Shown piece after piece: positions 2,585-42,007 of a DNA stretch of 42,007 bases. This DNA is from an uncultured Balneola sp. Lineage in GTDB: Bacteria; Bacteroidota; Rhodothermia; Balneolales; Balneolaceae. Where the stretch lies: contig CAJXQC010000026.1 of assembly GCA_913058495.1 (NCBI GenBank), positions 1 through 42,007 on the forward strand, read 5' to 3'. How positions within the stretch are numbered: the first letter of the stretch is position 1; each line of letters opens with the position of its first letter. The translations under genes and the position numbers were made by a program. A model generated the notes under the pieces. That model was not told where the DNA came from. It searched no databases and was given only the letters and a program-made list of their open reading frames with translations.

Positions 2585-2693
2585 CTGATTTAGATTTAGT
2601 AATAAGTTTCTATTCCTTGTGTATGAAAATAACTTAAATTAATTGTTATTAGAAACACTCTTTAGGTAGTAAATAATCCTACCAACTAACTTC

Positions 2694-3428
2694 TTAAGAT
2701 TGTGTACTTCCTATTTTTTCCTTTAATGCCCCGATAGTTAATTCACTTTTAGTATAGTATGCTTCCATTTGTGATAGTATATAGTCAATGTGACTAAATG
2801 GATCTCCCATGAATGAACTATCATTATCAAGCTCTAGCGCTATTGAGTTTACTTCACTGACAATTTCTTGTAATGAGAGTCCTTCTGTCACACACAACCT
2901 TTCTGCTATACTTTTAGATAAGATGTACGATGTTGAATTAGAACCATTGCTAGAACTATTACCACTACCACTACCAGAACTATTACTATTACTATAACTC
3001 TTAAGTAAGGGTTGGCTAAGGGTAGGATTAGGGTAATTAGAGTATAATTCTGGATCATTTAAGTAAGCGATCTCAAATATACCAGCCTTCTTCAATTGTT
3101 TTACTGAACTTTTATGTGGTGGACTAGCTGCTGATAAAGGACCTCCAGTTTCCTTTTGTTGAAATCTAACAAAATCTTTAAACCAAGTTACTTGTTCATT
3201 AACTATTTCCATTTCATTATTCAATGCACCTACTAGTTCTTGAACAATTTCTTCATTTACTTCATATCCAACGTAAGCTGACATGACCGGGTAATTTAAA
3301 ACATATACACCTGCTATATCACTTCTTTCCCACAAATATTTATATAAGAGTTTTTGCTCTAAAGTTAAGTTTGAGAATAAAGGTTGATCCCAATTGTTAT
3401 TAAAAAACCTTTTTGCTGTACTAGACAT
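2694..3428 (-). CDS. Phage-type replisome organiser-like protein
   Basis: A 244-residue protein. The N-terminal ~95 residues (KRFFNNNWDQPLFSNL, EQKLLYKYLW, DIAGVYVLNY) follow the winged-helix pattern of phage and mobile-element replication-initiation or DnaD-like proteins. Residues ~143-166 form a low-complexity Ser/Asn/Gly linker, followed by a helical C-terminal domain. I chose the ATG at 3428 because AAGGAG lies 8 bases upstream. That is one of the best Shine-Dalgarno sequences in the window, and this start overlaps the stop of the previous gene by 8 bp. An ATG at 3479 would add 17 poorly fitting residues. It is the last gene of an overlapping trio with an excisionase-like HTH protein, so I infer a replication or maintenance role in the integrated element. 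Confidence 0.72.
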   Translation of the reverse strand: MSSTAKRFFNNNWDQPLFSNLTLEQKLLYKYLWERSDIAGVYVLNYPVMSAYVGYEVNEEIVQELVGALNNEMEIVNEQVTWFKDFVRFQQKETGGPLSAASPPHKSSVKQLKKAGIFEIAYLNDPELYSNYPNPTLSQPLLKSYSNSNSSGSGSGNSSSNGSNSTSYILSKSIAERLCVTEGLSLQEIVSEVNSIALELDNDSSFMGDPFSHIDYILSQMEAYYTKSELTIGALKEKIGSTQS

Positions 3429-3633
3429 CAGTATTCTCCTTTTGCATGTTATAACTCTCGAAAAATAAGCTGCAATCATTAATTGAAAATTGCTTTTGTA
3501 AACATTCCACTATTATTGGAAGTAAGAAGTCTCCACTTTTCAATGTCTTCTCTAACATGGCAATGCATTTTCCATCTCTTATTACTTCAGATCTTCTAAC
3601 TTGATTTTCCATATCCACGACATTAAACATCAT
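3421..3633 (-). CDS. Small hypothetical protein in overlapping trio
   Basis: A 70-residue protein, unrecognised. It starts inside the end of the HTH gene (11-bp overlap) and ends inside the start of the replisome-organiser-like gene (8-bp overlap), an arrangement that argues for real translation. AAAGGATG precedes the first ATG at 3633; a second ATG follows immediately, and a third at 3612 would give 63 residues. The sequence has basic N-terminal residues (NQVRRSEVIRDGK) and a central hydrophobic segment (DFLLPIIVECL). No domain can be named. Confidence 0.6.
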   Translation of the reverse strand: MMFNVVDMENQVRRSEVIRDGKCIAMLEKTLKSGDFLLPIIVECLQKQFSINDCSLFFESYNMQKENTDV

Positions 3634-3940
3634 CCTTTGGCTGGATATAATTATCCTTTAAGAAGCTTAGTATCCCATCTCTTGGATAAAGTATCTTTCT
3701 ACCATGTTGTGAAAAAGGAATCTGTCTGGTATCTCTCATATGCTGAATCGTTCTACCACTCCAACCGGTTAACTTTTCAAGCTCAGTTTTTGTTAACCAT
3801 TCTTTCTTTCCGAGTTCCTGGATAAGCTTAGGAACCTCATCTCTGATAATATTTCGAAGTACTTTATCGAAGTATAATTCTAATTCTTTTCTCTCAGCTA
3901 CAAATTGTAATTGGTCGCCTTCTAATTTATTGTAATTCAT
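3623..3940 (-). CDS. Excisionase-like helix-turn-helix protein
   Basis: A 105-residue DNA-binding protein. Residues ~47-75 (EWLTKTELEKLTGWSGRTIQ) form a MerR/excisionase-type helix-turn-helix, followed by a wing-like segment RQIPFSQHGRKILYPRDGI and a short tail. Proteins of this size and layout are common beside tyrosine recombinases in Bacteroidota elements, where they act as recombination directionality factors or element regulators. GAAAGG lies ~9 bases before the ATG at 3940. It leads the trio with the genes at 3421 and 2694 and is preceded by a palindrome at 3988. The HTH is clear. The excisionase role is inferred from the integrase ~10 kb away in the same presumed element. Confidence 0.82.
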   Translation of the reverse strand: MNYNKLEGDQLQFVAERKELELYFDKVLRNIIRDEVPKLIQELGKKEWLTKTELEKLTGWSGRTIQHMRDTRQIPFSQHGRKILYPRDGILSFLKDNYIQPKDDV

Positions 3941-4053: not shown

Positions 4054-4938
4054 TCATATTTTATTGTTCAAATATGGCTTCATGGAATCATTATTCTTTA
4101 TTCTAGCCTTAATTGTGTCTATACTAACATCCTTTTCAGTTACTTTGAAACACTCATAAATAATGTGCAAAGCCAACGTCTTTTGAACAATATTCTTATT
4201 ATTCTTTCCTTTCCAATACTTACTTTTATCCTTTTCAGGACTTTCTAAGAACGTTTTTATATGTTTATTGACTTTTTCTTGATTGAATGCGTCGAAAGGA
4301 GGTCTTCCTAATTTTGTCACTCCACGAATACGCTCTTTAGAATCTTGATCAAGATTATCCCAATTAGTTGATTTACTTAACAATCCCCTAAAGTATAAAT
4401 CAATAAGTTCAACGATTAAGTTTGAATGATTACGCTCTTGTATATATAAATTGAATTTCTCAGCTAAATCACTAAAACTAAGAATACCATTTAGTTCACT
4501 GAACTTTAAAGTATCGTCTTCATCTATAAAACTATTTATTTCTCTTTTAAATAGAACATGGGAAATAAATTCGTTCATTAAGTAAATATCAGATTCTTTG
4601 TCTAAATCTTGTTTATTTACATTTATTAATTCGCTGACTAGATAATCGTATTGGGGTCTTGAAATTCTATCCAATAGTGTGTCTATATGGTCTTGGTCAT
4701 CAAAACCAATTCTAGTTGTGAATATTTTTATATATAAAGAAAATGATTTATTTAGCTCGTGAAACCGAAATTTTATTAGTTCTAGAATATATTGATGAAT
4801 AGAAGTGAGATCGGCAATATTTGAGATTTCCTGTTCATTGGAAAAAACATGATCTAAATACTTATTCCAAAGACCTACTAATTTGTCTTCATTAAAAGAA
4901 TCTTCTCTGAAATAATCACGAAAACCATCTACCATCAT
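4054..4938 (-). CDS. Unknown protein, last gene of type I RM operon
   Basis: A 294-residue soluble, mostly helical and acidic protein that I do not recognise. Its ATG overlaps the hsdR stop (ATGA), so it is translationally coupled to the restriction subunit and belongs to the same operon. No membrane segment, nucleotide-binding loop or metal-binding cluster is visible. A conserved-looking stretch GVTKLGRPPFDAFN (about 206-219) is followed by a basic segment KYWKGKNNKN. The end (IDTIKARIKNNDSMKPYL) could be a helix-turn-helix-like tail. It could be an anti-restriction safety factor, an extra defence effector or a regulator. The operon position is the only evidence for any of these. Confidence 0.78.
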   Translation of the reverse strand: MMVDGFRDYFREDSFNEDKLVGLWNKYLDHVFSNEQEISNIADLTSIHQYILELIKFRFHELNKSFSLYIKIFTTRIGFDDQDHIDTLLDRISRPQYDYLVSELINVNKQDLDKESDIYLMNEFISHVLFKREINSFIDEDDTLKFSELNGILSFSDLAEKFNLYIQERNHSNLIVELIDLYFRGLLSKSTNWDNLDQDSKERIRGVTKLGRPPFDAFNQEKVNKHIKTFLESPEKDKSKYWKGKNNKNIVQKTLALHIIYECFKVTEKDVSIDTIKARIKNNDSMKPYLNNKI

Positions 4939-7900
4939 CCCACCTTCACTTCGTTCAATTCTTTCACTCTTTCTACCAGTAGATCTACGACCTCAGCATT
5001 CTCTCTAAAGGCACCGTCTATTCCTTCAGGATCTAAGAAATCAAATGGAGGTTCATACAAGTTGCTTATTTCCAAGTGACCTTTTCTGGAGTAGAATTCA
5101 ATCATCATCTCAATGAAATTGATCTGTGTTGAACTCAGTCGTTGATCTTTTAAGAACTCTTCAAACTTTTCGATGACCACACTACGACTTAGTCCTGATA
5201 CTTCTCTTACAAACTTAATCAGATCAAGCTTACCCCCTATCAATTCGTGAAACTCCTCTGCAGTAATCGCTGGATCTACTTCAAGTAGAAGCTTCTCTAA
5301 AGTCTCAACATCCTTTTCGGTTAGTGGCTGTGCATTTCTGATCTTATCAATGACCAAATTATGACCATGTTCTTCAATAAACTTCCTGATCTTTCTTAGA
5401 TAGCGATCTTTGTCAATAACTGGATCACCTGCAATGATATCATCTATTTCTACATCCCCAAATTCATCAGCAAAATTTGTATAAACCGGGGCTCGCTTCT
5501 TCTTTTCAATGAGATGCATCAGATCTCTCACCTCAATTCTTATCTCTTCTAATTCTATTACCGGAGGAGAAACCCAAAAGTCTTCAGTAATTACTTTCTC
5601 AATTGAAGGTAATGCTGCTTTTATACTTGGGATATGCTTCTTGGCGTACAAGTGCTCACCAAACCCAATTACAATCTCTTTGGTTTTCTTCTCAACTAAA
5701 ACACCATCCATCCTTTCATGAATCAGAGTTAACATGAGTAAATCAAAGCGTCGGGTCATCTCGTCTTCTTCCAATTCGGCCGGAATGATTTCTCCCAGTT
5801 CTCTAACAATTTCTTTACGCTCGTGAGACTCCAAACTTACCCAGACAGCACGATCTTCTAATCGGTGAATCATCTTTAAATGTGGTCGTACCTGAATACT
5901 TTGTTTTTCAAGGTTAGCAACCTGTTGATGAAGCTGATCTAATAATGTAGTTCGAAATTCCTGAAGCTCTTCCTGATGCTTATAAGGTTCATTCTTTAAC
6001 TTTGTAGTAAGTAACAATCGTTTCTCAAACACCTTAGCTGTTACAGATGCCCCTTGAGTTGTATCAAATCCTTCAGGATTCTGCTCGAAGAACTCAAAGT
6101 TGCCACAATAATCAAATATAAAGAAGTGTTGTTTGTTCTGTCCGGGACCAAATAAATCAGGTCTCAATCTTGTACCCCTACCAATCATTTGATTGAACTT
6201 AGCTTTGGAACGTACAGGTTTAAAGAAGACCAAATTCACACAATCAGGTGCATCAATACCCATATCCATCATATCTACTGAGATTGCAATCGCCGGCATC
6301 TTACCCGGTAAGCAAAACTTCTCAATGAGATCTTGGGCATACTCTACTTGGTTATCAATCAATCGTGCTAAGTGACCTGCATATTTTGGATAGTTCTTAT
6401 CAAAAATCTCTTGAATAAACTGAGCATGACGATGATTCTTTGCAAAGATAATAGTATCACCTATGCGATCACCACCTTCAACTTTTATCCCATGCTCCAT
6501 CAATTGTTGAAGTACCTTCTCAACCGTGTCTCTATTAAACAACCATTTATTTAGCTTTCCTGCATCAATATGCTCAGGAACTGCCCCTGTTTCATCATCA
6601 GCCAATAGATCATCATACTGCTTCTTTTCCTCTTCAGACAACTCAGAATACTTTATTCCTTCGGATAAGAACTTCCCTAGTACAGATATTTTCTTAGGTG
6701 GAACCAGATAACCGTCTTTTACTGCTTCTTCCAGCCCATAAGCATAGGTAGGATTGCCTTGTTCAGCGTTAAATAGATTATAAGTGTCATGATCTACATC
6801 TTCCTTAGGTGTAGCTGTAAGACCCAGTAACAGGGCATCGAAATAATCAAAGATTGCCTGATACTTATTATACACACTTCGATGAGCTTCATCTATAATT
6901 ACCAGATCGAAATAGCCGGGATCAAACTTTCGCTTCCCTTCTTCCATCTTCTCGATCTGATTCAGGATAGTTGGGTAGGTACTGAAAACTATTCGTGCTG
7001 CATCGTCATTCTTCTCTTCCACTAAATTTACAATCGGTACTTCAGGAAGGTGCGTTGCATAATTTTTATAAGCTTGCTTTACCAATGCATTTCGATCAGC
7101 AAGAAATAATATTTTATTAGCCCATTTATTCTTCAAGAGCATGTCAGTAATGGAAATCGAAGTCCTGGTTTTACCTGTACCTGTTGCCATTACCAGCAAT
7201 GCTTTTCGATGACCTTCTTCGAATCGTTCTCCTACCCTTCGAATTGCTGCTATTTGATAATACCGACCTGTAATATCTTCATTGATCTCTGCAAGCTTTA
7301 GAGATTCTTTCTCTCGCTTTTGAAAGAAAAGCTTCTGTAAGCTCTTTTTAGTATAAAAGCCTTGTACTGGTCGGGGTGGATAAGCCTGATCGTCCCAGAG
7401 CCAAATTTCGTAGCCATTAGACAAAAATATAACCGGTCTTACACCATACTTATCTTCTAAGCAATCTGCATAGAGTTTTGCCTGATGTTGACCTTCATCT
7501 ACATCACGAGTAGTCCGTTTGGCTTCAACTAACCCTATGGGTTTCCCATCATCATCCCAAAGCACATAATCCACATAGCCGGTACCGGTCTTATTAGGCA
7601 TGCCTTGAACTTCAAATTCTCTGACATTAGGATCAGCAGGGTTCCAGCCCGATTCTCTGAGCATTACATCAATTAAAAGCTCACGTGTGCCTGCTTCATT
7701 GTAATTATGATTGTCTGCATACTTACGAGTTTGCAAACGCATCTGTTTGATCTCACGATTGCGTTGCTGTATTGCTTCATCTTTTTCTTCTAATGATTGC
7801 TGAAGTTGCCTAAGCTCTTCTGCTTTTGCCTCCATCTGTACTTCCATCTCCTGGAGACGCTTTTCTGTCTCTTTAGAAGCTGCTTCTACTTTTGGAACCA

Positions 7901-8315
7901 ATTGAGGATCGAAGTTTAATACTTCTTTAGAATCTTCATCTGTGGTATAGGTACGATATAACCAAAACAGAATATGAAAAGCTTCTTCGCATACTCTTAA
8001 TGCATCATGTTCTGAAATTCTCTTTCGTTCATGAACAGCCAAATTTCCAACTTTTCGGATAACTTTGATCTTTTCATAGATTGTATAGCCAATGATCTTC
8101 CGGAAAGAGAGTTCATTCGTAATATTATATAAACTGGTGTCGTAGGGAAGTTCCAGATCTTCATCATTCTCATACATCCAAAGCACAACTTGTTCGATCA
8201 GATAACGAGCCCTTCCACATGCACCCCTAGGATCGAAATGCACCAGCTTTTCCATCGCTTTAGCATCATCGATGAACTCAGGCCAATCAGGTTTTAAGAA
8301 GTTAAAGTTGGACAT
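4935..8315 (-). CDS. hsdR: Type I restriction enzyme, R subunit (EcoEI-type)
   Basis: The translocase/nuclease subunit of a type I restriction-modification complex: it pumps DNA and cuts when translocation stalls. Order of parts: an N-terminal DUF4145-like helical domain (~20-120); a coiled coil (~140-200); a PD-(D/E)XK nuclease with D249 and E264-x-K266 (VEAKR); helicase motif I ATGTGKT (377-383); DEAH (475-478); TATP (500-503); motif VI IGRGTR (711-716); and a C-terminal EcoEI-type domain that contacts the M and S subunits. At 1126 residues it is full length. All catalytic residues I looked for are intact. It starts 9 bp after the upstream unknown gene and its stop overlaps the next start. 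Confidence 0.96.
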   Translation of the reverse strand: MSNFNFLKPDWPEFIDDAKAMEKLVHFDPRGACGRARYLIEQVVLWMYENDEDLELPYDTSLYNITNELSFRKIIGYTIYEKIKVIRKVGNLAVHERKRISEHDALRVCEEAFHILFWLYRTYTTDEDSKEVLNFDPQLVPKVEAASKETEKRLQEMEVQMEAKAEELRQLQQSLEEKDEAIQQRNREIKQMRLQTRKYADNHNYNEAGTRELLIDVMLRESGWNPADPNVREFEVQGMPNKTGTGYVDYVLWDDDGKPIGLVEAKRTTRDVDEGQHQAKLYADCLEDKYGVRPVIFLSNGYEIWLWDDQAYPPRPVQGFYTKKSLQKLFFQKREKESLKLAEINEDITGRYYQIAAIRRVGERFEEGHRKALLVMATGTGKTRTSISITDMLLKNKWANKILFLADRNALVKQAYKNYATHLPEVPIVNLVEEKNDDAARIVFSTYPTILNQIEKMEEGKRKFDPGYFDLVIIDEAHRSVYNKYQAIFDYFDALLLGLTATPKEDVDHDTYNLFNAEQGNPTYAYGLEEAVKDGYLVPPKKISVLGKFLSEGIKYSELSEEEKKQYDDLLADDETGAVPEHIDAGKLNKWLFNRDTVEKVLQQLMEHGIKVEGGDRIGDTIIFAKNHRHAQFIQEIFDKNYPKYAGHLARLIDNQVEYAQDLIEKFCLPGKMPAIAISVDMMDMGIDAPDCVNLVFFKPVRSKAKFNQMIGRGTRLRPDLFGPGQNKQHFFIFDYCGNFEFFEQNPEGFDTTQGASVTAKVFEKRLLLTTKLKNEPYKHQEELQEFRTTLLDQLHQQVANLEKQSIQVRPHLKMIHRLEDRAVWVSLESHERKEIVRELGEIIPAELEEDEMTRRFDLLMLTLIHERMDGVLVEKKTKEIVIGFGEHLYAKKHIPSIKAALPSIEKVITEDFWVSPPVIELEEIRIEVRDLMHLIEKKKRAPVYTNFADEFGDVEIDDIIAGDPVIDKDRYLRKIRKFIEEHGHNLVIDKIRNAQPLTEKDVETLEKLLLEVDPAITAEEFHELIGGKLDLIKFVREVSGLSRSVVIEKFEEFLKDQRLSSTQINFIEMMIEFYSRKGHLEISNLYEPPFDFLDPEGIDGAFRENAEVVDLLVERVKELNEVKVG

Positions 8316-8324
8316 TTTATTTGT

Positions 8325-9032
8325 TTATTTTTGTATCTCAATCATCTCTAAAAAAGTATCTCCGAGTTTTGTAGTCAGCTTTTGAAACTTCCTTTTAGTA
8401 TGTCTACCTATAGTTATTTCATCACCATTGATAAGGCCATATGCACTTAAATCTCGCCAATATTGCGAAATCATCTCCATTTTATTTTTTAACTCTGGGT
8501 ATAATTTCTCTATTAATTTTTTACTATTTATGATGAGTTCATGATTTAAATTATCCTTCCTATCTTTGGCAAAATCATTTGGCTTACTAAAAAGTTTTAA
8601 AAGGAAAATATGATTTGGATTCATCCTTTCTATTAATGTTAGCCAGTACTCTAATTCGTCAAACTCGTTTACATTTTCCGTTAACTTTTCTGATGCATTT
8701 ATTAAAAGATTTCTTAATGCCTGAAGCTTTTCTTGTTGGTGATTTTGCTGAGCTATAATTGTAGCCTTAGTTATAATTGTAATAAACTCTTCATTCTTTG
8801 ATAAATCCTTAAGTGTGGTAAGTCCATCTTTTTCTCTTCGAACAAGATCATTCATTAACAAGTTAAGCCATTCTTGTTTTCTCTGGATATGAAGTGGTTG
8901 GACTAAAGCTGTAAATAAATCATAAGCTTTTGCTCCTCCTGGAAGAAGTGAAGAGGTTAATTTAGCATTCAAGTCTTTTGCCTCACTATGTTCAATCTCT
9001 ATCTTTTGGTCTATGAACTTTTTCCTATCCAT
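8325..9032 (-). CDS. Unknown helical protein between hsdS and hsdR
   Basis: A 235-residue soluble protein. I use the ATG at 9032, which shares its A with the hsdS stop (TGATG); a GTG one codon upstream is also possible. The middle (EEFITIITKATIIAQQ, EKLQALRNLLINA) and the part that follows (EYWLTLIERMNPNHIFLLKLF) resemble a family of poorly characterised helical proteins I recall from many genomes (pattern EKLxxLRNxLxNA...LLxxLTPxHxxLLxxF). The C-terminus has a winged-helix-like ending (YWRDLSAYGLING, then basic residues). It is embedded between the specificity and restriction genes, so it may assist or restrain HsdR, but nothing in the sequence shows an activity. Confidence 0.8.
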   Translation of the reverse strand: MDRKKFIDQKIEIEHSEAKDLNAKLTSSLLPGGAKAYDLFTALVQPLHIQRKQEWLNLLMNDLVRREKDGLTTLKDLSKNEEFITIITKATIIAQQNHQQEKLQALRNLLINASEKLTENVNEFDELEYWLTLIERMNPNHIFLLKLFSKPNDFAKDRKDNLNHELIINSKKLIEKLYPELKNKMEMISQYWRDLSAYGLINGDEITIGRHTKRKFQKLTTKLGDTFLEMIEIQK

Positions 9033-10183
9033 CACCCAAAAACCTCCTGCACTAACGACGAAAACAACTCTTCTGATTTTTTTACCTTTGTTGCCTTTTT
9101 CTCTTTGATAATTGCGTTAACAATTCTCAAAAACTCTAGCTGCTTATTAAGTTCAGGGAGTTTGATTGGGATATTTTTAAACACTTTTGTACTGATGTTG
9201 TCAGCTGTTGTACCTCTCACTGTCCCTAGAACTTTCCGGCTATAATTTTTCAAGTAATACAATAGAAAGTAATTGTTGATTTTCTCTGAACATATTAATG
9301 CTTTCATATCTTGGTTTAAAGTTACATCTACAGTGTTGATTGCTAATGGCCATTTGTTCTTTAAAATTCCGCTTCTAACAACTGATAAAACTGCCCCACT
9401 TTTTATCAACTTTGTTGAACTTTCCTTGATGGCAGCTGAAGTAATTTTATCCTGTGAATCAGTTATAAATGTCCACTTCATGTCTTTTGGTGAAACCCAA
9501 GGAATTTCACCTCCCCAAAAATCATTATTCTTTTTACTAGGGGTTCCACCTCCCTGAAAATCAACTAATTCATCCAACTCAAAAGTATTATCATCATCAA
9601 TAGAAACTTTAACCGGATCACCAAACATATCCAAGAACACACTTTGGATGAGTTGGTCGTATTTCTCAAGCATGGCTTTATCAATGTCGATGAGTCGTTG
9701 AGCACGGTCTAACTTGGCTACAATTGCTTTTTGCTCGGCGAGGCTGGTAAGAGGGATTTTGAAATCTTTTATTGCACGTTTTGAAACCTCTTTAAAAGTA
9801 GTAGAGTTGGAAAGTTGAACAATGTCTTCAGTAAGATATTTAAGAACATAAGCCAAATACATCTTGTCAATTTCATCACCACAAGTAAAGTTGATAAATC
9901 CCTGGTTCGTGGCTACTGGTATGTCATTAATGGCAATTTTACCAATTGATGCCCTTGAAGAGAATATCACAGTATCAGGATCAAGTAATTTTGCAGAACA
10001 GCTATTTAAACCTACTCTTGTGATCTTTCTTTCAGAATCATTTATCCTAACAATTTCACCTATCTCAGGTAAATCAGATGGACTCAGCCAAACAATTTCA
10101 CCATTCCAATATTCTTCATTCTTAGTACTAGGAGTACTACCCCCATTTATTTCAGCAATTTCACTCAGCTTCACCTTCCTCAA
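9032..10183 (-). CDS. hsdS: Type I restriction enzyme, specificity subunit
   Basis: A 383-residue DNA-recognition subunit that sets the bipartite target of both methylation and restriction. It has two target-recognition domains, each opening with the family signature (GGSTPSTKNEEYW then WLSPSDL near residue 15; GGGTPSKKNNDFW then WVSPKDM near 210). They are separated by a conserved helical spacer LAEQKAIVAKLDRAQ (about 146-160), and a second helix ends the protein. I accept the TTG at 10183: GGAGGGG lies 5 bases upstream, and the codon overlaps the hsdM stop (TTGA). The architecture is complete, with no sign of truncation or of inverted repeats for specificity switching. Confidence 0.94.
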   Translation of the reverse strand: MRKVKLSEIAEINGGSTPSTKNEEYWNGEIVWLSPSDLPEIGEIVRINDSERKITRVGLNSCSAKLLDPDTVIFSSRASIGKIAINDIPVATNQGFINFTCGDEIDKMYLAYVLKYLTEDIVQLSNSTTFKEVSKRAIKDFKIPLTSLAEQKAIVAKLDRAQRLIDIDKAMLEKYDQLIQSVFLDMFGDPVKVSIDDDNTFELDELVDFQGGGTPSKKNNDFWGGEIPWVSPKDMKWTFITDSQDKITSAAIKESSTKLIKSGAVLSVVRSGILKNKWPLAINTVDVTLNQDMKALICSEKINNYFLLYYLKNYSRKVLGTVRGTTADNISTKVFKNIPIKLPELNKQLEFLRIVNAIIKEKKATKVKKSEELFSSLVQEVFG

Positions 10184-11655
10184 ACCATCCCCTCCAATTC
10201 ATCCAGAATTTTGAGTCGTTCTTTTGCAAGTTGTCTTAAGCCAGGTTCTCCATCTTTGCCGTTAATTATTTCTCTAGGCGTATCATATTCAACCGCTTCG
10301 TACTCAATTTCTTTATAGCGGTTTATTGAGAGGTCGTAGTTTTGGTCAACTATCTCCGCTTTAGGCACTAAAAAACTAGCATCAGTTCGTTTGCGATCTA
10401 CTTCATTATCTAGGTTCTTATATCGCTCAATAATATCCGGGAGGTCGTCAGAATCAATCTTAACTCTTTTATCATCTAAAGAATACCCGTCAGCTTTCAT
10501 ATCGTAGAACCACACATTATCAGTTCCACCTGAATTAGTTTTAGTAAAGATGATCACAGCTGTACTCACTCCGGCATAAGGTTTAAACACACCACTTGGC
10601 ATAGAGATCACCGCATTTAATTGGTGCTCTTCTACCAATAAACGTCGGACTTCTTTATGAGCATTTGAACTACCAAAAAGTACACCATCAGGTACAACAA
10701 CTGCTGCACGTCCACCAATTTTCATTGCACGAATAAACATGGCAATAAATAATAGTTCCGTCTTCTTTGTCTTTACAGTTTGTAGTAAATCAGAAGCCAC
10801 ACTGTCATAATCCAACGATCCTTTAAATGGAGGATTAGCCAGTATCAGATCAAACTTTTCATCTAAATCTCTTCCTTCACTGGAAAGGGAATCTTTGTAA
10901 TCAATAGTAGCACCATCAAAACCATGCATCACCATATTCATATTCCCGATACGAAGCATGGAGTTATCGAAGTCGTAACCGGTAAACATTTCTTTCTGGT
11001 AGTGATTTCTCACTTTCTCGTCAACCATATCCTTGGCATGATGATCCCGAATATATTCTCCTGCAGCTACCAAGAACCCTGCCGTACCACAAGCAGGATC
11101 TGCAATATTCTCTAATGGCTTGGGTTGTGTCAAATCAACCATCATCTTAATAATATGGCGTGGAGTACGGAACTGTCCATTCTGACCAGCTACGCTCAAT
11201 TTAGAGAGCATGTATTCATACATATCACCTTTGGTATCTCGGTCGTCCATCTCTAACTGATCCATCAGCTCAACCACTCTTGCTAAAGTAGAAGCCTTTG
11301 GAAACATAAAAATAGCCCCTTCCATATGTTTACGGTAGGTACTTCCATTTTTTCCACCTAGTTCTTTTATGAACGGAAATACATCATCCCGAATGGTGTT
11401 AAACATTTCGGTAGGTTCCAGTTGTTTCAAATTTCGCCATCGAAGGTGTTCTTGCTCTTTAGTAAAAGATGGATTCTGTACGGGTTTACCTGTTCTCTCT
11501 GCTTTTTTCTCGGCTTTAAGTTGTTGGTCGTCTATTCCTTTTATAAAAAGTAGATAGGTAAGTTGTTCTATTACTGTTAGTGGATTCGAAATTCCTGCAG
11601 TCCAAAGTGTTTCCCAAATTTTATCAACTTTGTTCTTTAGTTCGCCTGTGAGCAT
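10180..11655 (-). CDS. hsdM: Type I restriction enzyme, DNA methyltransferase subunit
   Basis: The modification subunit, an adenine-N6 methyltransferase using S-adenosylmethionine. It has a helical HsdM N-domain (~1-130), the conserved QFRTPR (161-166), SAM-binding motif I DPACGTAGF (187-195) and catalytic motif IV NPPF (274-277). The C-terminal helices (GLRQLAKERLKILDELEGM) would bind HsdS. At 491 residues it is a normal length. It is the first gene of the five-gene operon, behind a long 374-bp divergent intergenic region with repeats, so its expression is likely to be controlled there. The stop overlaps the hsdS start. Confidence 0.96.
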   Translation of the reverse strand: MLTGELKNKVDKIWETLWTAGISNPLTVIEQLTYLLFIKGIDDQQLKAEKKAERTGKPVQNPSFTKEQEHLRWRNLKQLEPTEMFNTIRDDVFPFIKELGGKNGSTYRKHMEGAIFMFPKASTLARVVELMDQLEMDDRDTKGDMYEYMLSKLSVAGQNGQFRTPRHIIKMMVDLTQPKPLENIADPACGTAGFLVAAGEYIRDHHAKDMVDEKVRNHYQKEMFTGYDFDNSMLRIGNMNMVMHGFDGATIDYKDSLSSEGRDLDEKFDLILANPPFKGSLDYDSVASDLLQTVKTKKTELLFIAMFIRAMKIGGRAAVVVPDGVLFGSSNAHKEVRRLLVEEHQLNAVISMPSGVFKPYAGVSTAVIIFTKTNSGGTDNVWFYDMKADGYSLDDKRVKIDSDDLPDIIERYKNLDNEVDRKRTDASFLVPKAEIVDQNYDLSINRYKEIEYEAVEYDTPREIINGKDGEPGLRQLAKERLKILDELEGMV

Positions 11656-12029
11656 GAATATTTATTTCCCGAATAAAAGTTAAAACATATAGTTATAAGG
11701 GTGTATATAATGAAAACTTAGGTTTCATGGAAATTAAAAGAAGTGAAAAGTAATACTGACAGATTTCAAACAGATTAAATCTATCTGGAAGGCTAAATAT
11801 ACCTGTACATTCCCTGTACTTTACCTGTACTTTTTGTATATCAGAGTATCTTAGAACACTCTATTGCTTTATAATTTAGGCTTGTTCTTTATAACTTTTT
11901 GTTGCGTTCTATTACATTATTCATAACCACATGATTATGTAGTATTAATCGGGTCATTTTAGGTTACATTTTCTAAGGTTGAAAAACTAAATACTCTCTT
12001 ACTTCAACTTTAATAAAACCTCTTGCCTT
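11656..12029. other. 374-bp divergent intergenic region
   Basis: Lies between hsdM (leftward) and the exported protein at 12030 (rightward). No ORF or RNA gene is apparent. It contains the phased repeats at 11801-11833, a 5-1-5 palindrome AGATT-A-AATCT near 11773-11783 flanked by further CAGATT/ATCTG words, a TTTATAATT that could be a rightward -10 element near 11869, and a CATAA...TTATG inverted pair near 11920. Promoters for both directions must lie here, but I cannot place them with confidence. Confidence 0.6.
11801..11833 (+). repeat. Three tandem 11-bp repeats (CCTGTAC)
   Basis: ACCTGTACATT, CCCTGTACTTT and ACCTGTACTTT follow each other without gaps. The core CCTGTAC starts at 11802, 11813 and 11824, an exact 11-bp period, so the three copies face the same side of the helix. 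They lie 146 bp upstream of hsdM and ~200 bp upstream of the exported protein. They could be operator half-sites, iteron-like initiator sites or integrase arm sites. The sequence alone does not decide. Confidence 0.8.
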
Positions 12030-13391
12030 ATGAAATTATTCATAAATACCTTACTACTTTTGTTTGTATTAAGTCATCAAATTAAGGCTCAAGAAGCTGT
12101 AATAACTACCGCCATTGCTGCAACAGAAGCTTCTGAACTAATAGATCAGGCTAAGAATTCAGCTTCTACTTTGTTGGGTGAAGCCGAAGTCCGTGGTAGC
12201 GCACTATTAAATCAAGCAGGTAATGAACTTAATGTATTAGCTACAAATGCTTCGGTCTTACTTGGCAAACAGCTTGATAAAACAGTTGGCGAATTAAGTT
12301 CTCAGAACCAACAGTTAATGGTAAGATTAGATCGATTGACAAAAAGTTCTGAAAGTTTTCTAGCAAGGGATATATATGATTTAAAAGATGCTGTTGCACT
12401 AGATCTTACCCAAGCCCTTTCTGGTATTCCTTTCTATCAAGATAAATTATTTATATCAAGAGTTAATGGTCTAACTCATATTTCTAAAGATGAGGGATAT
12501 TATAAACTTGATATAATTGGTACAAATCTCGGTCTTGGAGATAATAAGGTGACTTCTGATATCTCAGTAACAATTGATTCAACTAAAATAACTGACACTA
12601 AAATTGAAAGAACTTCTAGAAATGAAACTGATATTTTAATTCCTGTTAAGTATTTAAATGACTCAACCAGTTATTCTTCAAAAATGGTGTCTATTGATGT
12701 GAAATACACAATTAAAAAGAAATTCCTTTTTTTGATACCATATTCAAAAAATGAAAATTTTTCCTTTAATATTAATGTATCTATTCTTTCAAAAAAAGCA
12801 GGTCAATTAACATCGAAATTTACTTCTTCCGAATATGGATGGGAAAGAGAACGTACAGAGCAGATTGAAAGATCAACTGCTAACCATCATTGTTCTAGTA
12901 GTTGTTCTGGTGAACCAACTCGAACTAATTATACAATTCCATTTAGAGTTAGCAGTTCTAACACAACCCCTCCTACTCTCGGTGACAGACGACTTCAAAA
13001 TATAAGGCTAAACTGTATAAGCGGTCCTTGTGGAGCATGGAATGCAGTTATGTCACTAAACATAAGCAATAACAGGACTCTAGCTGTTGCAAGCTTTGAT
13101 GTTTGGAGCCATCCTACAACTTGGAGAATGCAAGTAGATGTCGATCAATATAGAGAAATAAACGAGGTAGTTACTTCAAATTCTTCAGATTTATTTTATG
13201 ATCAAATAATAAAGATTGAAACACCTATTAACTTTAAATATGGGAAACTGGTCTACAAAACAATAACAAATAAACAAGTTGAGATACTTTTAGGATCCGA
13301 AGATGATGAAGGACTATTAACATTAGAAAGCATTCAAAACCTTAGTAATGGTCGTAAAATCTATTTCTACAAAGCAAAAAAACCAATATAA
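12030..13391 (+). CDS. Large exported protein of unknown function (element cargo)
   Basis: A 453-residue protein with a typical signal peptide (MKLFINTLLLLFVLSHQIKA, probable cleavage after residue 20). The next ~85 residues are an Ala/Ser/Leu-rich amphipathic helix or coiled coil (SASTLLGEAEVRGSALLNQA). After ~140 the sequence changes to beta-rich, Ser/Thr/Asn-rich segments, with an IPT-like stretch (GYYKLDIIGTNLG). Four cysteines (288, 292, 329, 334) may form disulphides after export. No enzyme motif is seen. It lies between the RM operon and the integrase, and its stop directly abuts the convergent integrase stop with no intervening base. A surface or periplasmic cargo protein is the most I can infer. 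Confidence 0.82.
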   Translation: MKLFINTLLLLFVLSHQIKAQEAVITTAIAATEASELIDQAKNSASTLLGEAEVRGSALLNQAGNELNVLATNASVLLGKQLDKTVGELSSQNQQLMVRLDRLTKSSESFLARDIYDLKDAVALDLTQALSGIPFYQDKLFISRVNGLTHISKDEGYYKLDIIGTNLGLGDNKVTSDISVTIDSTKITDTKIERTSRNETDILIPVKYLNDSTSYSSKMVSIDVKYTIKKKFLFLIPYSKNENFSFNINVSILSKKAGQLTSKFTSSEYGWERERTEQIERSTANHHCSSSCSGEPTRTNYTIPFRVSSSNTTPPTLGDRRLQNIRLNCISGPCGAWNAVMSLNISNNRTLAVASFDVWSHPTTWRMQVDVDQYREINEVVTSNSSDLFYDQIIKIETPINFKYGKLVYKTITNKQVEILLGSEDDEGLLTLESIQNLSNGRKIYFYKAKKPI

Positions 13392-14606
13392 TTAAAACAA
13401 GTTCTCCATCTCTTTATCAAGTAAGTTTTCATCGAAACTTTTTAAATAGACTTGTGTTGTTTTCAAATCAGAATGTGCTAATGCATTCGAAATAGCATAT
13501 ATATTCATTCCTTGAGATGCTGCATGTCTGGCAAATGAATGTCGGGCCATATGAAATGATACCTTCGTATCTATACCTGCTTTTTTGGCGATCTTCTTTA
13601 GATGTATATTTACAATGGCATTTTTAGAAGCTTTCTCTTTATCAAATACTACCGGGTCATTCAGTTCTTTATCTGCATCAAGAAGAGGAAATATTAAATC
13701 TGTATCTGATCCATTTGTCCTGTATTGTTTCAGTATATCAAAACTGTAATCATTTAGCTTAATGTCCTTCCATTTGGGATCATTATTTCGGGCAGTTTTA
13801 CTCATCTGATACTTTAATCTACCATCCTGTATGTTTTCCCAGGTAAGTCTACATAAATCCCCAAACCGTATTCCGGCATTATAAAAAGAGAATAGAAAAT
13901 AGTTTCTGGTATGGTACAAAGAACTATCACTATCTAACTCAAGTGCTTCTATTGATTTTAACTGTTCAAAACTTAAAGCCTCTTTTTTAGACTTTTGAAC
14001 CTTAGGCATCTTGTACCTATCGAAAGGACTTTCAGCTATAATACCTTTTTCAATTGCATCATCGAATACCAGTTTGATCTTAGCAAAGTCTTTTCTCACC
14101 GTGGTACTTATATTTTTATAAGTATCTACTTGGTACTTTTTAAGACTATCTAAAAACTGTTGATCTATATCTCTAAAGTAAAGTTTCTTTGAAGAGAATG
14201 ACCTAATCTTGTTTAGAGCTACTTTAACCTGTTTGGCTCTACGAACCAATCCATCACTTTTAACCCTTTCACAATATCCTTCTGCATAGTCTATAAATAG
14301 TTCCGGTGCTTTCCCCTTTAGTTTATCCACGATCAACTTAGATGATAGTTTGTTATTCTTTTCCAGATCGAAACCAATTTGCATAGCATTCAATATCAAC
14401 TCTTCTAATTGTAGATTGAGTACTTTTGCTTTTGGATGGCTTTTCCGAATAGTTCTTGCCTCCGGGTTCCAATGTTTAGGTAGTACTTTTATACCTGTAT
14501 TGTATAGACTCTTTCTTCTGTCGAACGTTATTCTCATGTATATCGGCGCAAGTCCTTCTTTGTTGGTCTTATCTGCTCGAATTATATAATGGTAGGTAGG
14601 TTTCAT
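13392..14606 (-). CDS. Tyrosine recombinase / integrase of a mobile element
   Basis: Site-specific integrase of the Bacteroidota type: an N-terminal arm-binding domain (YHYIIRADKTNKEGLAPIYM), a SAM-like core-binding domain (~100-200) and a C-terminal catalytic domain. Using the ATG at 14606 (404 residues), the catalytic residues are R247 (NAGIRFGDL), K270, H352-x-x-R355 (HMARHSFARH), H378 (LAHSDLKTT) and Y387. All are present, so it is probably active. ATG at 14630 or TTG at 14639 would add 8 or 11 residues; family members usually begin near the chosen Met. The gene starts ~150 bp from the likely attachment site at 14736, the normal place for an integrase. Confidence 0.95.
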   Translation of the reverse strand: MKPTYHYIIRADKTNKEGLAPIYMRITFDRRKSLYNTGIKVLPKHWNPEARTIRKSHPKAKVLNLQLEELILNAMQIGFDLEKNNKLSSKLIVDKLKGKAPELFIDYAEGYCERVKSDGLVRRAKQVKVALNKIRSFSSKKLYFRDIDQQFLDSLKKYQVDTYKNISTTVRKDFAKIKLVFDDAIEKGIIAESPFDRYKMPKVQKSKKEALSFEQLKSIEALELDSDSSLYHTRNYFLFSFYNAGIRFGDLCRLTWENIQDGRLKYQMSKTARNNDPKWKDIKLNDYSFDILKQYRTNGSDTDLIFPLLDADKELNDPVVFDKEKASKNAIVNIHLKKIAKKAGIDTKVSFHMARHSFARHAASQGMNIYAISNALAHSDLKTTQVYLKSFDENLLDKEMENLF

Positions 14607-14701
14607 ATTGGTAGAACATAGGTGGAACATTTTCTGCAATTCTTATCATCTTAATGAATTAAGAATCTGCCTCTATGTAATTTAAACCATTGTTTGAAAT
14701 C

Positions 14702-39189: not shown

Positions 39190-40656
39190 ATGAATATAAT
39201 CATTATCGGAGCAGGAATTGGAGGATTATCCGCGGGATGCTTACTCGCTAAGCAAGGCCATGATGTGACTATTCTGGAAAAGAATGAAAGTGTGGGCGGA
39301 AAAATGAATGAGATCACTGCCAATGGATTTCGATTTGATACCGGTCCTTCCCTGTTTACCATGCCTTATATTCTGGACGGATTATTACAGGAATGCGGGA
39401 CTTCCCTTTCCAAAGAACTTGAAATGGTTCCTCTGGATATAAACTGCCGGTATTTCTTTCAGGATGGAATGCAGTTCGATAATTACAGCGATCGTGCGCA
39501 AATGTTGAGAGAGATCCGCAGAATTGCTCCTGATGATGAGAAATCCTACATCAAATTTTTGAAATATGCTGAGTCTCTGGATAAAAAGACCCGGAATGCA
39601 TTTGTCCGGAATCCACTATACAATTTTTCTGACCTGAAGAATCTCAATCCGTTTTCTTTTTTAAGGATCGATGCCTTTACCACGGTCAGTAAACGGGTCG
39701 ACTCCTATTTTGAATCTCCGTACCTGCTACAGTTCTTTAAGCGGTTTACTACCTACAACGGCTCTTCACCTTTTCAGGCTCCGGCTACGCTGAATGTGAT
39801 TCCTCATATCGAACTGAATGAAGGTGGATACTACATCAAGGGCGGTTTATACCGAGTTGCTGAATGTTTGCGTGATCTGGCGACTTCTTTGGGAGTTAAA
39901 ATTGAATACAATGCAAAAGTAGACCGCATTCATATTTTGGAAGTCAAAATTAAAGGAGTGGAAACCGAATCCGGAGAATTGTTGGAGTGCGATCTTGTGA
40001 TTGCCAACAGTGACGCTTCGGAAACCATTCTGAATTTGATAGACGAGTTCAGTATTTCAGCCAAACGAAAAGAGAAACAAAAAGAGCTAGAACCCTCCTG
40101 TTCCGGTTTTGTGATGTTGTTGGGTGTTGATAAACAATACGAGCAGCTCATTCATCACAACATTTTCTTTTCCGCTGATTATGAACTGGAATTCAAACAG
40201 ATCTTTGATGATAAGGTCATGCCAGACGACCCGACCATCTACATCGCCAATACTTCCTACACAGATAAAGAACATGCTCCCAAAGATGGCTCCAATTTAT
40301 TTGTATTGGTGAATGCTCCTTATTTGAGTGAGTCCTTTAGCTGGGATAAAAGTAATTATGGAGATAAGGTGATAAGGGAATTAGAAAATCGTGGATTAAC
40401 AGAGCTTTCGGAACATGTAAAGTATCGTTCTGAGATCACACCAAAAGATTTCTATGAAAAATACCTCTCCAATAAAGGCAGTATTTACGGCACTTCTTCC
40501 AATGATAAATTCTCAGCCTTCCTTCGACCCAGAAACAAATCCCGCGAAATTGAAGGCTTATACTTTACAGGCGGTTCCACCCATCCCGGCGGCGGGATTC
40601 CGTTGGTTGTTCAAAGTGCTATTAATGCGGTGGAGTTGATTCAGAGGTTTGAGTGA
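39190..40656 (+). CDS. Phytoene desaturase family (CrtI-type) FAD oxidoreductase
   Basis: A 488-residue flavoprotein of the carotenoid pathway. The dinucleotide fold IIGAGIGGLSAGCLLAKQG is followed by EKNESVGGKMNE. The family stretch FDTGPSLFTMPYIL and the C-terminal FTGGSTHPGGGIPLVVQSA complete the FAD site. Length fits CrtI/CrtD/CrtN-like desaturases; phytoene desaturation or hydroxyneurosporene-type steps are both possible. No other crt gene is in view, and the next genes downstream are integron-type cassettes, so it is probably the last native gene before the array. Confidence 0.92.
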   Translation: MNIIIIGAGIGGLSAGCLLAKQGHDVTILEKNESVGGKMNEITANGFRFDTGPSLFTMPYILDGLLQECGTSLSKELEMVPLDINCRYFFQDGMQFDNYSDRAQMLREIRRIAPDDEKSYIKFLKYAESLDKKTRNAFVRNPLYNFSDLKNLNPFSFLRIDAFTTVSKRVDSYFESPYLLQFFKRFTTYNGSSPFQAPATLNVIPHIELNEGGYYIKGGLYRVAECLRDLATSLGVKIEYNAKVDRIHILEVKIKGVETESGELLECDLVIANSDASETILNLIDEFSISAKRKEKQKELEPSCSGFVMLLGVDKQYEQLIHHNIFFSADYELEFKQIFDDKVMPDDPTIYIANTSYTDKEHAPKDGSNLFVLVNAPYLSESFSWDKSNYGDKVIRELENRGLTELSEHVKYRSEITPKDFYEKYLSNKGSIYGTSSNDKFSAFLRPRNKSREIEGLYFTGGSTHPGGGIPLVVQSAINAVELIQRFE

Positions 40657-40689
40657 GTTTGGGATTTATTCAGGAATTTTAGAAACCAT

Positions 40690-40705
40690 TTTTATCATGA
40701 TAAAA
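40690..40705. repeat. 16-bp perfect palindrome and nearby hairpin
   Basis: TTTTATCATGATAAAA is a perfect palindrome 34 bp after the crtI-like stop. A second hairpin, CAAGGA-AAA-TCCTTG, follows at 40765-40779. Either may end the crtI transcript. Alternatively, they could belong to the recombination platform in front of the first cassette. Neither has a convincing T-run. Confidence 0.5.
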
Positions 40706-40794
40706 TCCTAACTTCTTTGTTTACTAGTATTTTAGAGTAAATTTTTAGATTTTATCGGGACAAGCAAGGAAAATCCTTGTTTGGATAATATCAT

Positions 40795-40805
40795 GTTAGT
40801 TGTAC
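40795..40805 (+). other. Left edge of first integron-type cassette
   Basis: GTTAGTTGTAC. It is the exact reverse complement of the 5' arm of the attC-like site at 41121-41131 (12 bp if the next base is counted), as expected for the G/TT crossover point where a circular cassette inserted. The start codon of the cassette gene follows immediately. No attC lies to its left, so this is either an attI-like position or a secondary insertion site. Confidence 0.75.
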
Positions 40806-41114
40806 ATGTCTAATTCAAAAAAATATTGGTACTTGATAGCGGTCCAAACAGGCATAAGTCTCCTTGCTTTTACTTTTCTGGAGATATTAGGTGATAGTAT
40901 CTATGTATACTTATCCTTGGGTTTTTTAATTATTACACCTGGTATTTATGCCGCGATCCACGCCTACAAAATTCAAACCAAAGCATTCAAAAAATATTTC
41001 TTCTTAATTGGCACATTTGCTTTAACCGCTACAAATTTAATTGTAGTTGGATTATTTATAGGCCAATTAGTAGCAATATTACTTGGAGTATGGAATTTTC
41101 CACCCCAAGATTAA
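40806..41114 (+). CDS. Cassette 1 gene: three-helix membrane protein
   Basis: A 102-residue protein from the ATG at 40806; a TTG at 40800 lies in the cassette edge. Three hydrophobic segments (about 8-25, 32-50 and 63-95, the last possibly two short helices) make it an inner-membrane protein, ending NFPPQD. No family is recognised. The gene fills cassette 1 almost exactly, starting at its left edge and stopping 6 bp before the attC-like site. That compact layout is typical of integron cassettes, which often carry orphan membrane or exported proteins. Confidence 0.82.
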   Translation: MSNSKKYWYLIAVQTGISLLAFTFLEILGDSIYVYLSLGFLIITPGIYAAIHAYKIQTKAFKKYFFLIGTFALTATNLIVVGLFIGQLVAILLGVWNFPPQD

Positions 41115-41120
41115 AAAGTT

Positions 41121-41251
41121 GTACAACTAACAAGCGTTTCAAGTCGGACTCGGGAAGTGGCTCCGCAGTTTTAACTTTCAGGTAACTGATTAATTCTGTT
41201 ACTTTCAGAAAAATCGAAAACCCTCGCCGCTTAAACGCGGGGTCGTTATAC
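41121..41251 (+). other. attC-like recombination site 1 (complete)
   Basis: The 5' arm GTACAACTAAC is followed by AAGCGTTTCAAGTCGG. The 3' side reads GCCGCTTAAACGC and ends GTCGTTATAC. CTTAAACGC (41230-41238) pairs with GCGTTTCAAG (41134-41143), leaving one unpaired base, the extrahelical base that sets strand choice in integron attC sites. The ends are the R''-like CTAAC and R'-like GTTATAC. The overall layout matches Vibrio-type VCR elements closely. It is ~130 bp, normal for attC. Confidence 0.85.
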
Positions 41252-41262
41252 CCACTAGCATT

Positions 41263-41844
41263 ATGATTAAAACAACTGCTTTTCTATGCTTTTTCTTAGC
41301 TAGTTTATCAAACTCATATGCACAAGATGATCTTGCCTTTCTTCAAGATAAGTATGGCGACATTGTGTATACAGCAATCTTTTCTTTACCAGAGTCAAAA
41401 AATCAGTTTTTAGATGTTACAGGAGAAACGCTTTGGGTAACTTATTCACCTGATTACTTAGTAAAATTGATCTCAAACGATGCCAAGAAAGACCTTAATA
41501 ATGCTTTTATGAATTTAAGTTCTAGTGAAGGACTTACAGAACGTATTGAGAAATGGGTTTTAGCTTATCACCAATTCTCTCATGCATTAACTCTTGCAAG
41601 TATTGAATACACAATGGCTGCCGTTTACTCTCAACCAGAGACCCGACAAATATTCAAGAATATCATAGTCAGTAGAAAAATGGAATCGAATATTTCGGGT
41701 ATTGATATCGGGACTACTTTAAGTTCATCTGAAATATTTTCTTTGCAATATGAAGCATTGAACATATTATCAAACCTCAAAATCAAAGATCAGCTGAGTT
41801 ATTTTGATAATTTGTTTAATACTTTAGCCGTTTTAATAGAATAA
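41263..41844 (+). CDS. Cassette 2 gene: exported protein, unknown
   Basis: A 193-residue protein with a clear signal peptide (MIKTTAFLCFFLASLSNSYA, cleavage near 20). The mature part is helical, and I recognise no motif. SYAQDDLAFLQDKYGDIV begins the mature protein, and the centre has YHQFSHALTLASIEYTMAAVY. The gene starts 17 bp inside the cassette and ends 2 bp before the next attC-like arm, again a compact cassette. Function unknown. Confidence 0.85.
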   Translation: MIKTTAFLCFFLASLSNSYAQDDLAFLQDKYGDIVYTAIFSLPESKNQFLDVTGETLWVTYSPDYLVKLISNDAKKDLNNAFMNLSSSEGLTERIEKWVLAYHQFSHALTLASIEYTMAAVYSQPETRQIFKNIIVSRKMESNISGIDIGTTLSSSEIFSLQYEALNILSNLKIKDQLSYFDNLFNTLAVLIE

Positions 41845-41846
41845 TC

Positions 41847-41958
41847 GTGGGTATAACAAGCGTTTCAAGACGGACTCGGGAAGTGGCTTCGCAATTTAAA
41901 CTTTCAGGTAACTAATTAATTCTGTTACTTTCACAAAAAACCGAAAACCCCTCGCCGC
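41847..41958 (+). other. attC-like recombination site 2 (3' half missing)
   Basis: GTGGGTATAAC (41847-41857) is the exact reverse complement of the left edge of its own cassette (GTTATACCCAC, 41245-41255). It then follows site 1 with roughly 90% identity for ~105 bp (AAGCGTTTCAAG, CGGACTCGGGAAGTGGCT, CTTTCAGGTAACT, TTAATTCTGTTACTTTCA, TCGCCGCT). At 41959 it leaves the pattern: the expected AAACGC and R' GTT end are absent. Confidence 0.8.
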
Positions 41959-42007
41959 TCATATCTTGTAAAAAGTACGTATTGTACTATTTAAGCAAAC
42001 AGGAAAA
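41959..42007. other. Contig tail after broken attC
   Basis: 49 bases with no similarity to the end of site 1. They contain AGTAC-GTATT-GTACT, a 5-bp inverted pair. They could be true sequence after a decayed last attC, or a misjoined end, since near-identical attC repeats are common assembly breakpoints. No gene. Confidence 0.5.

Follow-up and report, generated by a model that had tools for sequence, protein, structure and literature searches.

Two gene cassettes at a conserved attI-like site behind crtI in an uncultured Balneola sp. suggest an integron with several docking sites

We analysed contig CAJXQC010000026.1 of an uncultured Balneola sp. (assembly GCA_913058495.1), here called C26, at positions 1-42007; the draft genome comprises 3.40 Mb in 47 contigs, and "the window" means this whole stretch of 42,007 nucleotides. 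At its right end, directly behind a gene for a crtI-family phytoene desaturase, lie two gene cassettes with attC recombination sites, which begin at a site resembling the attI of an integron integrase (IntI) encoded on another contig of the same genome. Sites of this kind, referred to below as docks, recur at cassette arrays elsewhere in this genome and in its relatives. From sequence comparison we favour, with a probability of about 0.7, the reading that a single IntI inserts cassettes in trans at multiple attI-like docks and so forms a distributed integron. The anatomy of the cassettes, the IntI gene, the like core at attI and docks, the conservation of the dock behind crtI and the different cassettes found at this same dock can be read directly from the DNA. 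The genome of the window is labelled G000 and those of its relatives G001 and so on, with C for a contig and L for a fetched locus; the genus set holds eight genomes, G000 included. A slash within a sequence marks a crossover or insertion point. The features concerned are the following:

39190..40656, plus strand: crtI-family phytoene desaturase, the host gene (NCBIfam TIGR02734, 408.5 bits, cut-off 238.1)
40657..40798, plus strand: conserved stretch of 142 bp that follows the crtI stop, runs to ATGTTA and contains the dock
40785..40798, plus strand: attI-like dock core ATAATATCATGTTA, with the crossover taken to lie between G40795 and T40796
40796..41245, plus strand: cassette 1, edges self-complementary at 12/12 bases
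40806-41114, plus strand: open reading frame (ORF) of cassette 1, a small hydrophobic protein with no family match
41119..41254, plus strand: attC of cassette 1 (site 1), with R'' at 41125-41131 and R' at 41245-41251
41246..41959, plus strand: visible part of cassette 2, edges self-complementary at 11/11 bases
41263-41844, plus strand: ORF of cassette 2, 193 amino acids (aa), no family match
41847..41959, plus strand: site 2 (attC of cassette 2), 5' portion, cut after CGCCGCT
41960..42007, plus strand: left end of a repeated sequence, probably a mobile element in attC, which runs off the contig

The cassette nature of the array is as good as shown. Cassette 1 extends from the crossover G40795/T40796 to G41245, and cassette 2 starts at T41246. 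The left edge of the first, GTTAGTTGTACA at 40795, is the reverse complement of 41120-41131 (12/12 bases) and that of the second, GTTATACCCAC at 41245, the reverse complement of 41847-41857 (11/11), as expected because integration of a circle at G/TT leaves such edges. A preliminary description of the window had pointed out that each left edge mirrors the arm of its own attC, that the two attC-like elements are highly alike and that site 1 has an extrahelical base. All three observations hold, since 97 of the 106 jointly covered columns of sites 1 and 2 are identical (gaps counted as differences) and the L arm of site 1 reads GCGTTT-C-AAG against CTTAAACGC. An extrahelical base of this kind is typical of the Vibrio cholerae repeat (VCR), that is, of the Vibrio type. 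The same description treated site 2 as an attC throughout, which has to be corrected, as it is attC-like up to 41959 only and 41960-42007 is a different sequence; its two-cassette array stands in so far as two cassettes are visible, but site 2 is cut by a repeat at the assembly break, position 42007 being the end of C26 up to which the array runs. Concerning the encoded proteins, the best Pfam match of the first has an E-value of 0.55, the second has none in Pfam at E 1, and neither has one in NCBIfam at 0.01.

A search with an attC covariance model had also been proposed. Our own model R1, built from ten attCs of G000 with the outer R and L pairs set by hand, hits site 1 with 80.9 bits, a score that is not independent because site 1 is one of the ten training sequences, and site 2, which lacks its R' arm, with 30.3 bits (E 3.3e-5). 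Folded alone as single-stranded DNA, site 1 is unremarkable (z -0.98). Further copies of the core TAACAAGCGTTTCAAG, which the same description suggested looking for, do exist: there are 12 in G000 at no more than one mismatch. R1 finds attCs in 28 of 38 genomes, G000 included (E<=0.01), and 128 attCs of relatives, none of them used for training, reach E<=1e-6. These 128, of which 127 are distinct, stem from 33 of 40 fetched stretches. Among the distinct ones 96.1% of the cells are paired, two-sided changes occur in 10 of 16 pairs and 0 of 500 shuffles show covariation as high as that observed, figures that lean towards structure because the alignment was fitted to the structure of R1; when the pairing partners are shifted by one to three columns, pairing drops to 22.6-43.3%. 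Self-complementarity was sampled in 84 of 168 attC matches from 12 loci, of which 83 could be parsed, yielding 68 successive cassettes. The left edge agrees with the arm of its own attC at 6/6 variable positions in 50/68 cassettes and at 5 or more in 55/68, a level (>=5) that shuffled edges reach in 7.6%; only 5/83 attCs pair as well (>=5) with their own 3' side. That no integron is involved, and that the window simply carries small, vertically inherited genes followed by members of a repeat family, therefore has a negligible probability: self-complementary edges, attC covariation, an IntI in the genome and the unrelated genes that relatives carry at this position all contradict it, and no point was found in its favour.

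Two observations on other arrays of the family belong here. The array on C6 (L018, about 1980-3830) carries cassettes that we take to encode toxin-antitoxin pairs, as in large chromosomal integrons. Additionally, a palindromic repeat, AACCTC...AAGCTC...GCTTGGG with variants, resembling repetitive extragenic palindromic (REP) elements, follows or cuts attCs at array ends (L125 about 1890, L175 about 1770, L174 about 500, L022 about 3950), and an ORF beside intI (L017 2566-2925) presumably encodes a REP-associated transposase.

One protein of G000 exceeds the family cut-off for IntI. It is encoded at C30:32157-33098, on a different contig than the window, matches TIGR02249 in one piece (435.5 bits, cut-off 265; 1-314 of 315) and aligns nearly end to end with the IntI4 of PDB 2a3v (E 5.5e-82, 4-318 of 321); the Xer-like proteins of the genome match TIGR02249 in two pieces or partially. 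The intI gene diverges from the first cassette of C30, its frame ending 174 bp before it, and at this attI the left edge at G/TT is complementary to R'' of the first attC at 11/11 bases. A neighbouring ORF (L017 1079-2203) we take to be metK-like. The preliminary description had advised a search for an IntI with the integron-specific insertion, which the match to TIGR02249 in one piece indicates for this protein. It had also proposed that an IntI of this lineage inserted the cassettes or was their source; the presence of a full-length IntI, beside an attI of its own and with attCs of one family, lends support to insertion within the lineage. Among the 97 genomes searched, G000 included, 47 have an IntI over the cut-off.

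The cassettes of the window begin at ATAATATCATG/TTA, a core like that at the attI of this IntI. The dock lies directly 3' of crtI in the same orientation, and a crtI match is present in 8/8 genus genomes (E<=1e-100). Between G000 and G006, G007 and G001, the 142-bp stretch is 93.7, 96.5 and 93.0% identical, as compared with 63.4, 68.7 and 61.0% at the four-fold sites of crtI and 44-49% aligned identity, as for unrelated sequence, in the 200 bp beyond the stretch. Among G001, G006 and G007 themselves the corresponding values are 91.5-99.3% (142 bp) and 72.4-76.1% (four-fold sites), the gap being smaller for two of the three pairs. In the 200 bp upstream of crtI, identity is 54-73%. Specifically, the 111 bp preceding cassette 1 are matched at 94-96% in three species of the genus, and these matches stop within GTTA or one base beyond. 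A paralogue of the conserved stretch, 84% identical, lies at C23:35300-35395 of G000.

Five of the eight genus genomes (G000, G001, G002, G006 and G007) carry attC cassettes at the crtI dock; the fetched stretches of G001 and G007 each hold five attCs, and those of G002 and G006 a single one. The five docks are followed by 25 ORFs of 60 aa or more, among which no BLASTP match between species was found (E<=1e-3), and BLASTN matches between the arrays fall on attCs or partial attCs with one exception, in which 40 bp of G002 (1430-1469) match an attC of G001; the stretches compared differ in length, that of G000 being 1211 bp to the contig end. The preliminary description held that the same two genes in the same order in related genomes would speak for ordinary vertical inheritance. 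This test, run in part, found other cassettes there. The array had also been called CALIN-like, after the clusters of attC sites lacking an adjoining intI (CALINs). As in a CALIN, no intI adjoins the attC cassettes, but the place is not a random one, since the left edge is a conserved attI-like site at which different species hold different cassettes; measured against the usual definition of a CALIN, at least two attCs and no nearby intI, the window offers one whole and one cut attC at a contig end. Apart from these arrays, a relative of the crtI dock (83%) is located in G007 (L105, C17 around 400750) with ATTTTA in place of ATGTTA and is perhaps a dock without its former crossover base. The core at 40785-40798 appears to resemble one arm of dif (TTATGTTA); a dif-like core might be expected for an Xer-related recombinase.

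Docks of this kind are found at many other arrays. For 43 arrays we looked for a left edge that is the reverse complement of the R'' belonging to the first attC, and in 27 of them this edge carries a dock-like core, such as ATAATATTAT/GTTA, ATATTAATAT/GTTA or less strict versions of these, the loosest being those of G000 C9, G001 C17, G003 C3, G003 C63, G007 C2 and G020 C2; two of the 27 edges are poor by R'' (G001 C3 with two and G001 C8 with three mismatches of 11). A like core is common to intI-linked arrays (G000, G001, G002, G005, G006, G010, G020) and intI-free ones. The exact core ATAWTAWYATGTTA has 23 copies in 6/8 genus genomes, 22 of which sit at cassette arrays in the same orientation. 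Counted among these are G000 C40, with a degenerate attC (R1 E 0.044), G000 C42, judged by eye where R1 finds nothing, and G001 C8, whose attC is 2.5 kb distant; the one copy off arrays lies at G005:C1:1530479, in a 3-kb locus without an attC. Seventeen of the 23 are edges used to draw the pattern and hence not independent. Of the six new ones, five lie at arrays (G000 C40, G000 C42, G006 C11 and the main arrays of G006 and G007), the docks inside the two main arrays being near-identical orthologues and not independent of each other. In the eight genus genomes the exact core occurs once away from arrays, as against 8 occurrences of the reversed pattern, and avoidance of off-target docks is possible.

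BLASTN of the 1.2 kb upstream places several docks in related gene neighbourhoods, namely those of G000 C19, G006 C11 and G007 C15, of G000 C9 and G007 C2, of G000 C12 and G003 C3, and of G000 C42, G001 C17 and G003 C63. This recurrence, together with the 27 left edges that are dock-like cores and not attCs, makes it very improbable that the arrays were scattered by homologous recombination or inversion between the attC repeats of a single array. Such a process would find suitable substrates in the attCs, which are long repeats of high identity, and four of the 43 arrays (G003 C8, G003 C4, G007 C17b and G012) do start at an attC edge. At G000:C42 (L175) we observed three tandem modules (about 1437-1514, 2454-2533 and 2950-3014, the third cut by the end of the locus) with the dock-like end TTGTTCGGATAATAATATGTTA and variants and with small genes between them; docks may have been copied in tandem there.

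We compared 36 sites, seven intI-linked and 29 intI-free, two of which (G010_b and the site behind crtI in G003) have no attC found nearby. Homology to attI was scored over the 46 bp upstream of the 14-bp core, which was left out, against the best intI-linked attI and 200 shuffles. Eight of the 29 intI-free sites beat all 200 shuffles: G000 C19, G001 C8, G006 C16, G006 C11, G007 C17, G007 C15, G010_b and G020 C10. Concerning gene setting, the longest frame within 1.2 kb upstream is co-oriented in 25/29 intI-free sites (three have opposite frames and one lacks a frame of 90 codons), whereas a divergent frame as long as that of an IntI takes this place at 7/7 intI-linked sites. When orthologous sites are merged into 17 loci, by our own grouping, 14 of the 16 loci with a frame are co-oriented (chance of at least 14/16, 0.002). 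Two of the co-oriented frames, those of G007 C17 (135 aa) and G006 C16 (147 aa), may not be genes; the host genes upstream of docks presumably serve core metabolism or transport. The distance to intI can be considerable: on the single contig of G002, the coordinates of intI (1,000,596) and the crtI dock (2,601,547) differ by 1.6 Mb; one contig of G010 carries intI and, 0.5 Mb away, G010_b; and G001 and G006 each have intI on one contig and the crtI array on another. A hairpin before the crossover was considered as a general dock feature and dismissed, as only 11/36 sites, several of them orthologous, show it at <=5/100 shuffles.

These data bear on a further explanation, namely that the arrays are remnants of several complete integrons, each of which lost its intI and kept attI and cassettes. 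The site of G007 C17 resembles the attIs of G001 and G006 (z 20-22) in a genome without an IntI at E<=1e-60, and G010_b is a paralogue of the attI of G010 (z 18), as such remnants would be. The contrast between co-oriented upstream frames at intI-free sites and divergent intI at all intI-linked ones, however, argues against it, as does the space between crtI and the crossover, which in five species is 95-141 bp long and holds no intI. We regard this explanation as fairly unlikely.

Under the distributed integron, which we consider the best reading, the window would be one port. A single IntI encoded elsewhere in the genome would excise cassettes as circles at folded attC sites, and the circles would be inserted in trans at several attI-like docks, each a core near ATAATATTATG/TTA, usually behind a co-oriented host gene. 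The crtI dock would be old and kept by selection, its cassettes turning over between species, and transcripts of these may run on from crtI or start at a promoter within the 142-bp stretch; read-through from host genes would be a natural route of cassette expression. We infer from these comparisons that IntI acts in trans, that docks serve as attI-type substrates under selection and that cassettes are expressed in one of these ways. A fuller version, in which a polycentric integron of one IntI and attI-like docks selected behind core genes extends through the genus and beyond, with expression set by the host gene and docks arising as copies of attI, is more tentative and falls somewhat short of even odds.

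The main rival is insertion at attG sites. Loot 2024 reportedly describes such insertion, with cassettes placed in the chromosome away from attI. Our arrays would then be ordinary CALINs at genomic lookalikes of attI, and their core would reflect a preference of IntI and not evolved docks. Insertion of this type is published, as parts of PMC12444791 and PMC12901181 indicate in citing Loot 2024, and Xanthomonas CALINs too recur at the same loci across species (PMC12444791, in part). Several results of ours weigh against docks loaded in trans. The upstream 46 bp of 21 of the 29 intI-free sites are not above all shuffles, among them those of G000 C9 and C12, which show no attI likeness; therefore some docks are homologous to attI and others share the core only, the six crtI sites reaching best z values of just 1.4-3.8. 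Sixteen of the 43 arrays gave no dock-like edge by script. Apart from the four that start at an attC edge, three of the sixteen were placed by eye or later (G000 C12, G006 C11, G030), and for the remaining nine no convincing left edge was found (G001 C15b, G003 C33, G005 C5, G006 C1, G007 C1, G020 C3, G020 C5b, G059, G061). These 16 arrays and 21 sites weaken the dock reading. For the core, the expectation with independent, identically distributed bases of the window's composition is 19 in eight genomes, so the count of 23 is not high as such, although it exceeds the 8 of the reversed pattern. Behind crtI, G003 has the similar core AATAATATGTTA, but the 1.4 kb that follow lack an attC; the site in G004 is decayed, and none of its contigs yielded an attC; G005 has nothing similar; G010_b, close as it is to the attI of G010, has no attC in its 7-kb stretch; G007 has 22 attCs but no IntI at the threshold given above. 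The conserved 142 bp may serve crtI itself, as its 3' end or terminator, and the genome of the window is a draft.

What tips the balance is that the constraint behind crtI, far above that of four-fold sites, reaches up to the crossover, and that some docks are homologous to attI; on these grounds docks are favoured over attG. Moreover, the crtI dock holds different cassettes in five species, eight sites resemble attI beyond the core, and all but one of the 23 exact copies of the core lie at arrays. An attG site is defined as unlike attI and attC; the docks share their core with attI, the upstream likeness of those at crtI being weak. Judging from descriptions only, our arrays agree with attG insertion in that chromosomal cassettes lie away from attI, and differ from it in that the docks share the attI core and that the dock behind crtI is used repeatedly at orthologous positions. 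We consider attG insertion unlikely on the whole, though likelier than any other rival.

Finally, the sequence that interrupts site 2 is of interest in itself. Of the 48 bases after 41959, 41 recur exactly at the ends of C30 and C19, each time after CGCCGCT, and a second shared sequence (30 bases exact) precedes CTTAAACGC and the R' arm at the start of C6 and the end of C17. Intact attCs read CGCCGCTTAAACGC at this junction, which places CT on both sides of the insert. With three left ends after CGCCGCT and two right ends before CTTAAACGC, point and orientation within attC are fixed. We infer that copies of one element occupy three or more attCs, always at the same point and with the same orientation, and that the assembly broke there; it is probably a mobile element targeting attC. 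Neither end has a match outside G000 at <=3 mismatches in the 97 genomes (G000 itself being among them), an exact 31-base piece is absent from viral contigs, and plasmids give weak partial matches only (E 3 or more); a match of a 19-base pattern in a metagenome-assembled genome of Clostridia (genome_contigs) was taken as chance, the rest of the end being absent. In the 40 stretches of relatives scanned for attC halves there are many partial sites, and the same insert was not recognised by eye. Among others, attC is a known target of IS1111-type insertion sequences (PMC11187229, in part) and of group IIC-attC introns, which according to parts of PMC7923331 begin with GUGYG at the 5' end and insert at TTGT/T. 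An intron of this group was rejected, because neither end begins with GTGYG on either strand and the point is CGCCGCT/TAAACG, not TTGT/T. Our element shares one fixed insertion point in attC with the IS1111 type as partly described (PMC11187229) and differs in that its transposase has not been seen: the DEDD transposase model PF02371 has no match in the assembly of G000, where the interior of the element is unassembled.

Elsewhere in the window, no Rfam match reaches the gathering score, two weak E-value matches within and upstream of crtI being taken as chance, and no tRNA was found. The region 4054-14639 holds ORFs that presumably form a type I restriction-modification locus and a putative tyrosine recombinase (13392-14639) with a weak match to the end of TIGR02249; it is a possible island. 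The left-end ORF (2-847) terminates in ...SYTHLTLPTNRE, which we take to be sequencing-adapter read-through, and AGATGTGTATAAGAGACAG stands near the start of 5/10 readable contigs among C37-C46 (C38, C39, C42, C45 and C46), presumably a Nextera-like adapter contaminating the assembly at contig ends.

Compared with known systems, ours resembles the sedentary chromosomal integrons of Vibrio type in its IntI with divergent attI, its attC family of high identity and its small cassettes. In such integrons attI is described as typically one site close to intI (PMC9024848, PMC3607928, both in part), whereas here several attI-like sites lie far from intI. It is also like the recurrent CALINs of Xanthomonas in that the same loci are used across species with intI elsewhere in the genome, and unlike them in that no attI-like motif is mentioned in the available portion of that source (PMC12444791). 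In the literature searched, as far as its texts were available, we found no paper on integrons of the Balneol- group and no system described under orphan, multiple, additional or second attI or as a CALIN with attI in trans. An integron detection tool misses attIs other than those of class 1, of which few good descriptions exist (PMC9024848, in part), and docks would therefore escape surveys with that tool. If the docks are real attI-type sites served in trans, the integron would be a network and not one platform, the nature of CALINs would become a testable question, and these bacteria would possess a gene-capture system with many ports, one of them behind a carotenoid gene, instead of one.
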